From Gammaproteobacteria bacterium DTU040 (GTDB lineage Bacteria; Pseudomonadota; Gammaproteobacteria; Pseudomonadales; Pseudomonadaceae): a DNA stretch of 34,301 bases. Each line of letters starts with the position of its first letter. The stretch's first letter is position 1. The position numbers and the translations under genes were made by a program. The notes beneath the pieces were generated by a model. That model worked only from the letters and a program-made list of their open reading frames with translations, was not told the origin of the DNA and searched no databases. Of this stretch, positions 28,696 through 32,606 are shown in pieces. The stretch is taken from positions 1 to 34,301 of the forward strand of contig LFTS01000237.1 in the NCBI GenBank assembly GCA_001513435.1, written 5' to 3'.

Positions 28696-28701
28696 ATAAT
28701 A
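28696..28701 (-). promoter_or_regulatory. extended -10 promoter of the permease-trmA operon
   Basis: On the minus strand TGG-TATTAT forms an extended -10 about 30 bases before the permease start. No clear -35. The leader would be very short, leaving no room for a purine riboswitch. Confidence 0.45.
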
Positions 28702-28800
28702 CCAGCGCCCTTGTTAAAAAGGAAAAAGTGCGTTGATTTTGTCTAAATGAAACGACGCATTTAATTGTCTAATCTAATACGCAGGCATAAAGAGAAAATC

Positions 28801-28829
28801 TTGCATACAGGGTTAAGCTGCGCTAATGT
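28801..28829 (+). promoter_or_regulatory. sigma70-type promoter of the trp operon
   Basis: TTGCAT (28801-28806), a 17-base spacer and TAATGT (28824-28829) give an expected start near 28836, 45 bases before the leader peptide. The gap between the permease and trpE start codons (28667-29028) is over 300 bases; it holds the permease promoter, this promoter, the leader peptide and the attenuator region. Confidence 0.65.
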
Positions 28830-28880
28830 TATCCGCCTGAAATACTGATAATTTCTCCTAAATTCACTAAGGAAACACTC

Positions 28881-28952
28881 GTGGCTTTAGTACGTAAACA
28901 ACAAGATTGGCCGTTTTTAATAGTTTGGCGTCGTTGGCGCTGGCGCGCTTAA
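28881..28952 (+). CDS. trpL: trp operon leader peptide
   Basis: A 23-codon open frame, GTG to TAA, with a good AAGGA ribosome site 7 bases upstream. It has four tryptophan codons, at positions 10, 16, 19 and 21, with three of them in the last eight residues (VWRRWRWRA). Four Trp in 23 residues between a promoter and trpE is the mark of a transcription-attenuation leader peptide: ribosome stalling at Trp codons when charged tRNA-Trp is scarce would favour read-through into trpE. It is too short for routine gene calling. The reading is inference from layout; no homologue was compared. Confidence 0.8.
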   Translation: MALVRKQQDWPFLIVWRRWRWRA

Positions 28953-28963
28953 ATTTTGTTTGT

Positions 28964-28998
28964 AGTCGCTTGTGCGACTGGCTTTGCGTATTTTTATT
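28964..28998 (+). promoter_or_regulatory. putative trp attenuator hairpin
   Basis: A perfect 6-bp hairpin (AGTCGC 28964-28969, loop TTGT, GCGACT 28974-28979) begins 12 bases after the leader stop. A T-rich run (TATTTTTATT, 28989-28998) follows only after about nine bases, so it is not a textbook terminator. An upstream GCGC-TGGC-GCGC pairing (28937-28948) overlaps the last Trp codons and could be the competing 1:2 structure. The position fits an attenuator, but a strong antiterminator is not obvious to me. Confidence 0.5.
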
Positions 28999-29028
28999 GA
29001 ACTCTCTCCTCCTCCACGAGACCTGCTT

Positions 29029-30501
29029 ATGACCCAAGAAGAATTTTTGCAGCTTGCCAGCCAAGGCTATAACCGCATCCCATTATCGCGCGTGACCTTG
29101 GCTGACTTTGACACCCCGCTGTCTGTGTATTTAAAACTGGCCGATGCGCCTTATTCCTATTTGCTCGAGTCCGTTCAGGGCGGTGAGAAGTGGGGGCGTT
29201 ATTCCATTATTGGTTTGCCAAGCCGCACCCAGCTGCGCGTCAGTGGGGATGAAGTCACCGTCACTACCGATGGCGAGCAGGTTGAACAGCAGCAGTGTGC
29301 CGACCCCTTAAGTTTTATTGAAGCCTTTAAAGCCCGCTACTCAGTGCCGAGTTTGCCAAACTTGCCGCGTTTTAACGGTGGTTTGGTTGGCTACTTTGGT
29401 TATGACAGCGTGCGTTATGTGATGCCAGAACTGGGCGCGTGTCCGAATCCCGATGCTTTGCAGACCCCAGACATTTTGTTGTTAGTGTCTGATGCAGTGG
29501 TGGTGTTTGATAACCTCGCAGGCACGCTGTACACCATTGTCTTAGCGGACCCGAATGAGCCGGATGCCTATGCCCGCGGCCAGCAGCGTTTGGATGAATT
29601 GACCGCGCGTTTGCGTCAGCCGATTCAACCGCGCTTGGGTGTCGACTTAAACCACATGAATACTGTCGAGCCCGAGTTTGAATCCAGCTTTTCTCGCGAA
29701 GCTTTTGAGCAAGCCGTTGCGCGAATTCAAGACGACATTGCTGCCGGTGACTGCTTACAGGTGGTGATTTCCCAGCGCATGTCAGTGCCGTTCACAGCAG
29801 CACCTATTGATCTCTACCGTGCGCTGCGTTGCTTTAATCCCACGCCCTATATGTACTTTTTTAACATGGATGATTTCCATGTGGTCGGCAGCTCACCCGA
29901 GGTATTGGTGCGGGTTGAAGAAGGCTTAGTGACGGTGCGACCCATTGCCGGCACGCGCCCACGTGGCGCCACGCAAGAAGAAGACGTGGCGTTAGAACGC
30001 GAGCTGATGGCTGATAAAAAAGAGCTGTCTGAGCATGAAATGCTGATCGATTTAGGCTGTGCGGATGTGGCGTTGGTCGCGGATGAGGCGACGGTCAAAG
30101 TGACGGAGCGCATGGTGGTTGAGCGTTATTCCAATGTGATGCATATAGTCTCCAACGTGACGGGACAGCTTAACCCCGACTTAACGGCCATGGATGCACT
30201 GAAAGCGATTTTACCTGCGGGTACGCTATCGGGTGCGCCTAAGCTGCGTGCTTTACAAATCATTGATGAGCTAGAGCCAGTTAAACGCGGTATCTATGGC
30301 GGTGCGGTCGGCTACTGGGCGTGGAATGGCAATATGGATATGGCCATTGCTATCCGCACTGCCATTATTGCGCAGGGCGTTTTGCATGTGCAGGCCGGAG
30401 CTGGCATTGTGGCGGACTCTAAGCCCGCTGCTGAATGGGAAGAAACCCTCAACAAGCGCCGCGCTATGTTTAAAGCCGTGGCTTTAGCGCAACCAAATTA
30501 A
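29029..30501 (+). CDS. trpE: anthranilate synthase component I
   Basis: Converts chorismate and ammonia to anthranilate, the first committed step of tryptophan synthesis; glutamine use needs the TrpG/PabA amidotransferase subunit. The 490-residue protein carries the Trp feedback-site motif LLES (45-48, in [10 protein letters not shown]) and the chorismate-binding segments [25 protein letters not shown] and [14 protein letters not shown]. It reads as TrpE rather than PabB. I start at ATG 29029 ([10 protein letters not shown]), which matches Pseudomonas TrpE; the frame extends to 28972 but that part overlaps the attenuator. It is first in the trpE-ddh-trpD-trpC order, and trpG is not present. 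Confidence 0.95.
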
Positions 30502-30521
30502 GCGTTAGCCGCTACGCGCTT
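30500..30521 (+). other. small stem-loop at the trpE-ddh junction
   Basis: AAGCG/CGCTT arms (30500-30504 with 30517-30521) enclose TAGC/GCTA. It starts within the trpE stop codon and has no T-run, so it is not a terminator. It might tune ddh translation or mRNA stability, or be chance. Confidence 0.3.
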
Positions 30522-30552
30522 GACGCCCTTTAGCAATAAAACAGGTGAAACA

Positions 30553-31539
30553 ATGACACAACAAATCCGCATTGGGATAACCGGCTACGGCAACCTTGGC
30601 CGTGGCGTTGAAGCCGCACTGCAGCAGTCGCCTGATATGCGTTTGGTCGGCGTGTTTAGCCGCCGAGAGCCTGCCAGCGTGCAACTATTGGATACGAGCG
30701 TGCCGGTCTATGCGATTGATGAAGTGGCCGCCTATCAGGACGAGATTGACGTAATGATTCTGTGCGGCGGCTCTAAAGCCGATCTGCCCGAGCAAGGTCC
30801 TTACATGGCGGGCTTGTTTAATACCGTCGACAGCTACGATACCCACGCGCAGATTCCTGAGTATTACAACAGCGTGGACAAACCCGCACGCGAATCAGGG
30901 CATGTGTACTTGCTCTCCGCAGGTTGGGACCCAGGCTTATTTTCGATTAATAGACTCGTGGGCGAAGCCATTTTGCCCGTCGGTGAAACCTATACCTTTT
31001 GGGGTAAGGGCTTAAGCCAAGGCCACTCGGATGCCGTGCGCCGTGTGCCCGGCGTCAAAGCGGGCGTGCAATACACCATTCCGTCCACTGATGCCATTGA
31101 GCGGGTGCGCAGTGGCGCGCTGCCAGAGTTAAGTACCAAAGAAAAACATGTGCGTGAGTGCTATGTTGTGCTGGAAGAGGGTGCGGATGCGGATCAGGTC
31201 CGCCAAGCGATTGTGACCATGCCAGCTTACTTTGCGGATTACGACACGACAGTTCACTTTATTGATGAGAACACTCTAGCCAATGAGCACAGCGCCATGC
31301 CGCACGGTGGTTTTGTTATTCGAAGTGGTAAAAGTGCGCTGGACAATGATCAGGTGATGGAGTTCTCGCTTAAGCTAAACAGCAATCCCGAGTTTACCGC
31401 CAGCGTGTTGGTTGCTTATGCCCGTGCTGTGCACCGGCTGAGTCGTTTAAGCGATATTGGCGCGAAAACAGTGTTTGATATAGCGCCCGGCTTGTTGTCG
31501 CCTAAGAGTCCGGCACAGCTGCGCAAAGAACTGCTCTAA
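30553..31539 (+). CDS. ddh: meso-diaminopimelate D-dehydrogenase
   Basis: NADPH-dependent enzyme that makes meso-2,6-diaminopimelate in one step from tetrahydrodipicolinate and ammonia, feeding peptidoglycan and lysine synthesis and bypassing the succinylase route. The 328-residue protein aligns by eye along its length with Corynebacterium Ddh: Rossmann loop GYGNLGR (11-17), NADPH-phosphate FSRR (35-38), TVDSYDTH (91-98), [11 protein letters not shown] (124-134), [20 protein letters not shown] (149-168), MPHGG (249-253) and GLLSP. ATG 30553 has AGGTGA upstream; a TTG at 30520 would add 11 residues. It sits 51 bases after trpE and 26 before trpD, same strand, with no terminator between, so co-transcription with trp genes is expected. 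This is the position of trpG in Pseudomonas. Confidence 0.93.
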
Positions 31540-31565
31540 GCAGTAGACAGATAGAAGGTAGAACA

Positions 31566-32606
31566 ATGCACATTAAAGAAGCACTGAACTGGATAGTGAA
31601 TAATCTGGATTTAAGTACCGAGCAAATGCAATCGGTGATGCGCCAGATTATGACTGGCCAATGTACGGACGCTCAGATTGGGGCTTTCCTGATTGGATTG
31701 CGGATGAAAAGTGAAAGCATTGACGAGATCGTCGGTGCGGTGCAGGTATTGCGCGAGTTAGCTGAACCGGTCACCGTGAATGTGCCTTACTTGGTGGACA
31801 CTTGCGGCACTGGCGGCGATGGCATGAATATCTTTAACGTCTCCACAGCGGCGGCCTTTGTGGTGGCGGCAGCAGGCGGTCATGTGGCTAAGCACGGTAA
31901 TCGCGCGGTGTCTGGCAATAGCGGCAGTGCAGATTTACTGCAAACCGCCGGTGTCCATTTGGACTTAACCCCCGAACAGGTGGCGCGCTGCGTAGAAACC
32001 GTAGGCGTGGGCTTTATGTTTGCCCCCGCACATCACGGCGCGATGCGTCATGCCTTGGGGCCGCGCAAAGAACTGGGCTTGCGTACCCTGTTTAATATCC
32101 TCGGGCCGCTGACTAACCCAGCGCAGGTTAAAAACCAAGTGATAGGTGTGTTCAGTCGCCAACTGTGTCGCCCGCTAGCTGAGGTGCTACAACGACTAGG
32201 CAGCACCCATGTGATGGTGGTGCACGCACAGGATGGCATGGATGAAATCAGCCTAGGCGCACCGACCCATGTAGCAGAATTAAAAGACGGCGAAATCCGC
32301 GAGTACCGTATTCAGCCAGAAGATTTTGGCATTAATAGCCAGTCGCTGATTGGCTTGGAAGTCACGGACTCCGCCGCGTCTTATGCGTTGATTAAAGATA
32401 CTTTTCTCGCTCGTGAACTGCCTTACGCGCACAAAGCGGCAGAAATGATTGCCCTAAATGCGGGCGCGGCGATTTATGTCAGTGGCATAGCCGCAAGTCT
32501 CGAAGAAGGCGTGCAGCGCGCCCACGACACTATATATACCGGGCTGGCTTTGGAAAAGCTGGTCGAGTTGGTATCCTTTACTTCAGTTTTTAAGCAGGAG
32601 TCTTGA
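31566..32606 (+). CDS. trpD: anthranilate phosphoribosyltransferase
   Basis: Transfers the phosphoribosyl group of PRPP to anthranilate in the second tryptophan-specific step. The 346-residue protein has the glycine loop GTGGDG (81-86), NVSTAAA (91-97) and the PRPP loop KHGNRAVSG (109-117), then [21 protein letters not shown] and the metal-binding DGMDEIS. One residue is odd: the loop reads GNSGSAD, with asparagine N118 where homologues have lysine (GKSGSAD or SKSGSAD). The rest is intact, so I call it functional. It is a stand-alone enzyme, not fused to trpG. ATG 31566 has GAAGG upstream. trpC begins two bases after its stop. Confidence 0.95.

Follow-up and report, generated by a model that had tools for sequence, protein, structure and literature searches.

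The locus raises the question whether the short, tryptophan-rich reading frame ahead of trpE controls this gene, and whether such control would act on transcription or on translation. The window, which is the whole stretch of DNA analysed (34,301 nucleotides), stems from a fragmented genome of 2.2 Mb, whose closest named relative by TrpE is Thiopseudomonas denitrificans (L006, 81% identity), which places it in the Pseudomonadaceae. A search of plasmids for DNA resembling 28700-29100 gave no match.

The leader reading frame ahead of trpE

All features described here lie on the + strand. The trpE gene for anthranilate synthase component I (29029-30501) was identified by a TIGR00564 match of 541 bits against a cut-off of 517.7. 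Its start is the ATG at 29029, with the GAG(A) of its ribosome site at 29018; the GTG at 28972, proposed mechanically as the start, was rejected. The leader ORF MALVRKQQDWPFLIVWRRWRWRA (28881-28952) begins with GTG and comprises 23 codons, of which codons 10, 16, 19 and 21 encode Trp (28908, 28926, 28935 and 28941). Its ribosome site AAGGA (28869-28873) is placed 7 nt 5' of the GTG. The first-pass annotation had reported a GTG-started frame of this length with four Trp codons and a ribosome site ahead of trpE, and all of these elements are present.

The plausible promoter described together with the frame found mixed support. A strict sigma-70 consensus scan 5' of the leader returned none, but a probable promoter can be read from the sequence, with TTGCAT at 28800-28805, a 16-nt spacer and an extended -10 element TGC-GCTAAT at 28819-28827, which would place the start of transcription at about 28834-28836. 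The -10 stretch TGCGCTAAT (28819-28827) includes GCGCTA, and this motif is found 38-61 nt 5' of the leader start in 47 of 111 distinct pseudomonad leaders, the one of the window among them.

The number of Trp codons alone is weak evidence for a leader, since 3 of the 426 ORFs of 15-40 codons in the window contain four or more. Relatives were therefore compared. The regions upstream of trpE were collected from 58 named loci, 3 genus-mates and 86 further Pseudomonadaceae genomes, the last taken from 243 with a match among 248 searched. One of the named loci (L062) holds only the end of trpE and lacks its start, and one of the 86 (L121) was not oriented by the script; its leader is present in that genome as L152. 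Of the resulting 146 upstream sequences, 128 carry the Arg-Trp anchor and 18 do not (L040, L043, L045-L058, L060 and L061), all 18 from outside the Pseudomonadaceae by title. After L035 was dropped, whose leader start is cut by the contig end, 127 leaders remained, 111 of them distinct.

A leader precedes trpE in all 128 resolved Pseudomonadaceae loci, and in all of them its end is of the RWRWR type or its Thiopseudomonas form. Loss of the Trp codons in relatives had been named beforehand as a possible refutation; instead, Trp is kept at the two last positions in 111/111 and 108/111 distinct leaders. A typical peptide of the family is MVVTRKQWMKVIKALARWRWRA, from which the window's leader diverges, with an additional Trp at 16. 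This conservation, unlike the Trp count, is strong evidence that the leader is beyond chance, and sequence comparison indicates a genuine leader ORF of ancient origin in the pseudomonads. Of 25 loci from other families of the order (L154-L178), 15 have a listed short ORF with WRW ahead of trpE.

A long-range stem between the leader start and the trpE ribosome site

In the minimum-energy fold of the window, two helices, P0 and P1, enclose two further ones, P2 and P3. P0 is an inverted repeat that joins CUCGUGG (28878-28884), including the start codon of the leader, to CCACGAG (29014-29020), including the GAG Shine-Dalgarno sequence of trpE. P1 pairs leader codons 3-6 (AGUACGUAAA, 28889-28898) with UUUGCGUAUU (28983-28992), a stretch 3' of the hairpin P3; its 5' arm is also marked by covariation in relatives. 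P2 (AACAAGAUU, 28900-28908, with AAUUUUGUU, 28952-28960) holds most of the Trp codons, and an equivalent pairing appears in the folds of relatives.

Folding ensembles of the distinct leaders showed the same two contacts. With a threshold of more than 4 expected pairs, contact between the leader start and the trpE ribosome site was found in 100/111 leaders, or in 104/111 when the leader region was widened to its own Shine-Dalgarno sequence, and contact between leader codons 3-11 and the stretch behind the hairpin in 107/111. Among the 98 leaders no longer than 175 nt, 94 made the first contact, 94 the second and 92 both; the corresponding counts for 588 block shuffles were 96, 121 and 44, which are not independent tests because the sequences are related. 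For the window alone both helices were reached by 15/400 shuffles, which is thin evidence, and L003 from its own genus is weak, with 4.0 and 0.0 expected pairs. P0 is missing from the ensemble in five leaders with a longer spacer (L110, L117, L120, L123 and L129) and almost missing in L107 and L146.

Inserted stretches or extra hairpins were seen between the P1 3' arm and trpE in L109, L112, L136, L138 and L144. A second group with inserts or extra hairpins (L107, L110, L111, L117, L120, L123, L129 and L146) has largely lost P0 in the ensemble.

A test in which arms were swapped between leaders discriminates weakly. The own pairing was better than the mean of the swaps in 84/111 leaders overall, in 80/111 for P0 and in 68/111 for P1. 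When swaps were made by arm class, the own arm was better in 17/21, with the L118-class arm anchored wrongly in this test; the 7-nt arm of the window did not beat the others (12.5 versus 12.8). Taken as sequence and modelling evidence, the folds argue that leader sequence sequesters the ribosome site of trpE in a conserved stem.

Compensatory changes in P1 and P0

RNAalifold on a plain MAFFT alignment yielded almost no structure, because leaders of unequal length were misaligned; alignment A1 shares this fault. Pairs were therefore counted on anchored blocks. In P1 the partners were found to swap in step: GCAAAC:GUUUGC, GCAAGC:GCUUGC (genus group g11 and L124 of g15), GCACAG:CUGUGC (g6), CACACAC:GUGUGUG (g8) and CACACGC:GCGUGUG. 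In 42 anchored rows 94.4% of the cells are paired, and 13 cells are changed on both sides compared to 2.8 in whole-arm shuffles, a value reached by 0/1000 of them. This count leaves aside the Halopseudomonas rows, L003-L005, L008 and L014, where the sequence anchor missed the 3' arm; with all 62 rows, 18 cells stand against 5.6 (again 0/1000). Slid versions of P1 are paired in 9-50% only.

P0 varies as CGUGG:CCACG, CGUGGAA:UUCCACG, CGUGU:ACACG and CGUGC:GCACG. In Halopseudomonas and Thiopseudomonas the pairing of the leader site with the trpE site is kept in other registers (GAUCAGCC:GGCUGAUC in Halopseudomonas, AAAGGC:GCCUUU in L005) and is weak in L003. In 47 rows 8 cells are changed on both sides compared to 3.3 in shuffles (reached by 8/1000), and extra pair types are no more frequent than in shuffles (238/1000). 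For all 62 rows, the percentage paired was reached by 36/1000 and the number of extra pair types by 293/1000 shuffles. Changes of leader codon 2 in g8 (GTG to GAA or GAT, TTG, CTG) are matched by changes in the trpE site; such codon-2 compensations were seen in this one genus group only, and mismatches in L129, L148, L015 and others are uncompensated. In the covariance check, as proposed with the first reading of the locus, the compensatory support from these anchored blocks is strong for P1 and modest for P0.

Ribosomes on the leader and access to trpE

With about even chances in our judgement, the leader controls trpE mainly at the level of translation, by translational attenuation. The sensor would be the leader ORF with its final codons alternating between Arg and Trp. 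When Trp is ample, ribosomes would clear the leader and the long-range stem of P0 and P1 would close, pairing the leader start region with the trpE ribosome site, so that neither start is accessible and trpE stays off. Under a shortage of charged tRNA-Trp, ribosomes would stall and queue on the leader; they would then occupy the 5' arms of both helices and expose the trpE ribosome site. We infer three points for the organism: the closed stem represses trpE, queued ribosomes open the stem, and the signal sensed is Trp.

The unpaired fraction of trpE positions -12 to +3 was calculated with ribosomes placed on the leader. Its mean over 111 leaders was 0.39 in the free RNA, 0.52 with the leader start covered and 0.50 with a queue; in the window it rose from 0.41 to 0.68 and 0.74, respectively. 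With one ribosome at the final pair of Trp codons the site stayed unopened (0.40 versus 0.39 free, 111 leaders). Covering the leader region, which had been suggested as a check, hence made the site more open when a ribosome sat on the leader start or a queue was placed, but not with one ribosome at the final Trp pair. Since a single stalled ribosome opens nothing in the model, switching would require queued ribosomes or effects of kinetics. A leader of 22-23 codons would be long enough for another ribosome to follow a stalled one. An upstream Trp codon (W8 in many Pseudomonas, W10 in the window) would be expected to hold a ribosome over the P1 arm; a ribosome at this position changed little (0.42 unpaired in 74 leaders), because P0 remains paired.

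In a wider reading, which we hold to be possible though rather doubtful, the starts of the sensor ORF and of the enzyme gene would form a mutually antisense toggle with queueing as its signal and without a terminator, which may span the Pseudomonadales with other pairings. Trp would then be sensed through the occupancy of the leader start by ribosomes. Among loci of other families, pairing of the leader with the trpE ribosome site was found at p<0.05 in 10/39 loci and at p<0.01 in 4, only a hint, since the 39 include the Pseudomonadaceae loci L152, L153 and L059 and several uncertain trpE starts.

The contact between leader and trpE ribosome site takes a quite different form in some of L154-L178. 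In L163 the sequence GGUAAUUCC at the Trp-stop region pairs with GGAAUUACC, and in L157 GUUAUACC pairs with GGUAUAAC; neither is significant alone.

The hairpin, the T-run and termination of transcription

The hairpin P3 lies 3' of the leader stop codon (28963-28980, core 28964-28979, AGTCGC-TTGT-GCGACT) and folds better than shuffles (z -2.74, 1/200), while the entire leader alone shows no unusual stability (z -1.24 and -1.31). A TTTTT run (28991-28995) shares its first two bases with the end of the P1 3' arm. Hairpin and offset T-run are thus both present as first described, but the offset from the hairpin core is 11 bases and not about nine.

Intrinsic termination, in which P3, or P1 closing at TTTTT, halts the polymerase except when stalling of a ribosome on the leader keeps the stem from forming, appears unlikely. 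It is favoured by the window, whose P1 ends inside the T-run, and by T-runs past the P1 3' arm in some relatives (L139, L147). By its title, a study of Pseudomonas putida likewise places trpE and trpGDC under attenuation (Olekhnovich and Gussin, 2001, J Bacteriol 183:3256, cited in PMC8297930). On the other hand, the T-run of the window is 11 nt away from the P3 stem and is not conserved: between leader stop and trpE a five-T run was found in only 16/111 leaders and an 8-nt stretch with six T in 28/111, and a lenient stem-plus-T scan found sites in 29/111, mostly weak and at differing positions. In the alignment, relatives share an equivalent of P3 that lacks a U-tract. P3 was therefore rejected as a conserved intrinsic terminator, and the earlier view of the hairpin as one was not borne out. 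The antiterminator pairing had been called not obvious, and none was found in free or constrained folds of the leaders either. Finally, any such terminator would lie upstream of P0 and leave this helix without a role. The surmise of a variant rather than an enteric attenuator agrees with these data: the Trp leader is conserved, the U-tract is not, and another stem is conserved instead.

Rfam searches of the window at gathering score returned tRNAs only and no match to a trp leader family, which was not found up to E 5 either. The one sub-threshold match, on the opposite strand, was to a Pistol ribozyme (20.4 bits versus 34.5, E 0.15) and was taken as chance.

In tnaC, stalling on the leader blocks loading of Rho. 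Leader-controlled Rho-dependent termination of this kind, with a closed leader and an untranslated trpE giving access to Rho and stalling blocking its loading, would fit the lack of a conserved intrinsic terminator. It is compatible with translational attenuation acting at once; the two can co-act because an untranslated trpE would invite Rho. For P. aeruginosa in biofilm under azithromycin, premature 3' ends near a GTG uORF of trpGDC are reported (PMC8297930). As the main mechanism, Rho would leave the co-variation of leader start and trpE ribosome site unexplained, and we regard it as improbable.

The Arg-Trp end of the peptide

The Arg-Trp repeat at the end of the leader had been singled out as striking. 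It is present, but it is no peculiarity of one genome; being common to trpE and trpG leaders of relatives, it is a trait of the family. R17 and R19 are invariant in 111/111 leaders, with only CGC or CGT as codons. In 73 leaders of 22 codons pN/pS was 0.83 for codons 2-8, 0.34 for codons 9-16 and 0.20 for codons 17-22, as expected if pairing binds the 5' part and coding binds the end.

The peptide itself might act, either by arresting ribosomes from within the exit tunnel through its Arg-Trp end or, once released, by working in trans, as described for the rhizobial peTrpL. The two Arg residues, kept although both codons are in use, the pN/pS of the end and its recurrence in trpG leaders are in keeping with such an action. 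However, these Arg codons have C or T at the wobble base throughout, a restriction that base pairing by itself might impose, and any attenuator would conserve Trp; an active peptide seems very unlikely. Less probable still is that a biased composition and the resemblance of the two ribosome sites produce the long-range pairing incidentally, with the leader working otherwise: both P0 arms are start contexts, P0 cores are short (e.g., CGUG:CACG) and the swap test is weak, but the pairing exceeds block shuffles, slid versions pair worse and the partners change together in several genera.

Relation to known attenuators

Control of amino acid genes by leader peptides is taught as termination of transcription. 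The trp attenuator of enteric bacteria, trpL (Rfam RF00513, Trp_leader), resembles the leader of the window in having a short ORF with Trp codons near its end and then a hairpin ahead of trpE. In contrast to trpL, the Trp codons here alternate with Arg instead of adjoining each other, no conserved U-tract and no antiterminator were seen in the leaders and Rfam gave no match.

Translational attenuators are known for antibiotic resistance genes such as erm and cat, where the stall site sits in the sequestering stem. Translational attenuation of trpE as proposed here would share with them that the state of the leader ribosome decides on access to the ribosome site of the next gene; it would differ in that the leader's own start is in the stem, with most Trp codons inside its loop, and in that the signal would be an amino acid. 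Such attenuators of resistance genes are also the subject of PMC12288461, and tlrB of Bacillus subtilis is another member of the class (PMC6851288). In the LEU element of actinobacterial leuA, a proposed pseudoknot, a base stem joins the leader to the Shine-Dalgarno box, with leucine codons pairing with this box; actinobacterial leaders for other amino acids that lack obvious terminators and have a base stem of this kind are described as well (PMC1262725). Both the LEU element and the leader of the window are thus amino acid leaders stemmed to a Shine-Dalgarno sequence, but here it is the leader start that pairs, and the gene is trpE.

A pairing of two translation starts was not found among the open papers searched. 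Nor did the search return a structural account of the trpE leader in pseudomonads; most subscription papers lay outside this search, so that such an account may be in print. The attenuation in P. putida, known here by title, concerns the same gene in the same bacterial family and is leader-based, and the stem between the two starts may be part of it. Leader attenuation of trpE is therefore already known, while the pairing of leader start and gene start is apparently new. If true, amino acid attenuation in a well-studied group would be set at the level of translation, which would explain why scans based on terminators overlooked the pseudomonad trp leader. The model offers base pairs that are directly testable in laboratory pseudomonads, e.g., P. 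putida.

A second leader and the gene order at trpG

A second leader, ending in KAxARWRWRA, was found ahead of trpG in 8 of 9 trpG loci examined (L183, L188-L193 and L196), in which trpG does not adjoin trpE; in the ninth, L195, trpG directly follows trpE. In 7 folded loci the RWRWR codons lie 151-187 nt 5' of the trpG start. The P1 pair GCAAAC:GUUUGC is present in the trpG leader of L188, too. The trpG leader looks like a copied control element.

Between trpE and trpD of the window (30501-31566), a diaminopimelate dehydrogenase gene (TIGR01921) stands in place of trpG. A similar gene is found at the same place in L006, and in the whole genomes G000-G003 trpG is likewise missing between trpE and trpD. 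TIGR00566 (trpG_papA) gave nothing above cut-off in 4 Thiopseudomonas genomes, one of them rated 100% complete, and was present in 15/15 other Pseudomonadaceae genomes tested. The weak TIGR00566 matches in Thiopseudomonas were frames of 381-447 amino acids, like many weak second matches in relatives. Thiopseudomonas seems to run anthranilate synthase without the usual glutaminase subunit. In the Denitrificimonas-like loci L008-L014 a glutaminase gene lies about 1.1 kb past trpE, with room for the same inserted gene, a gene order intermediate between trpEGDC and that of Thiopseudomonas.
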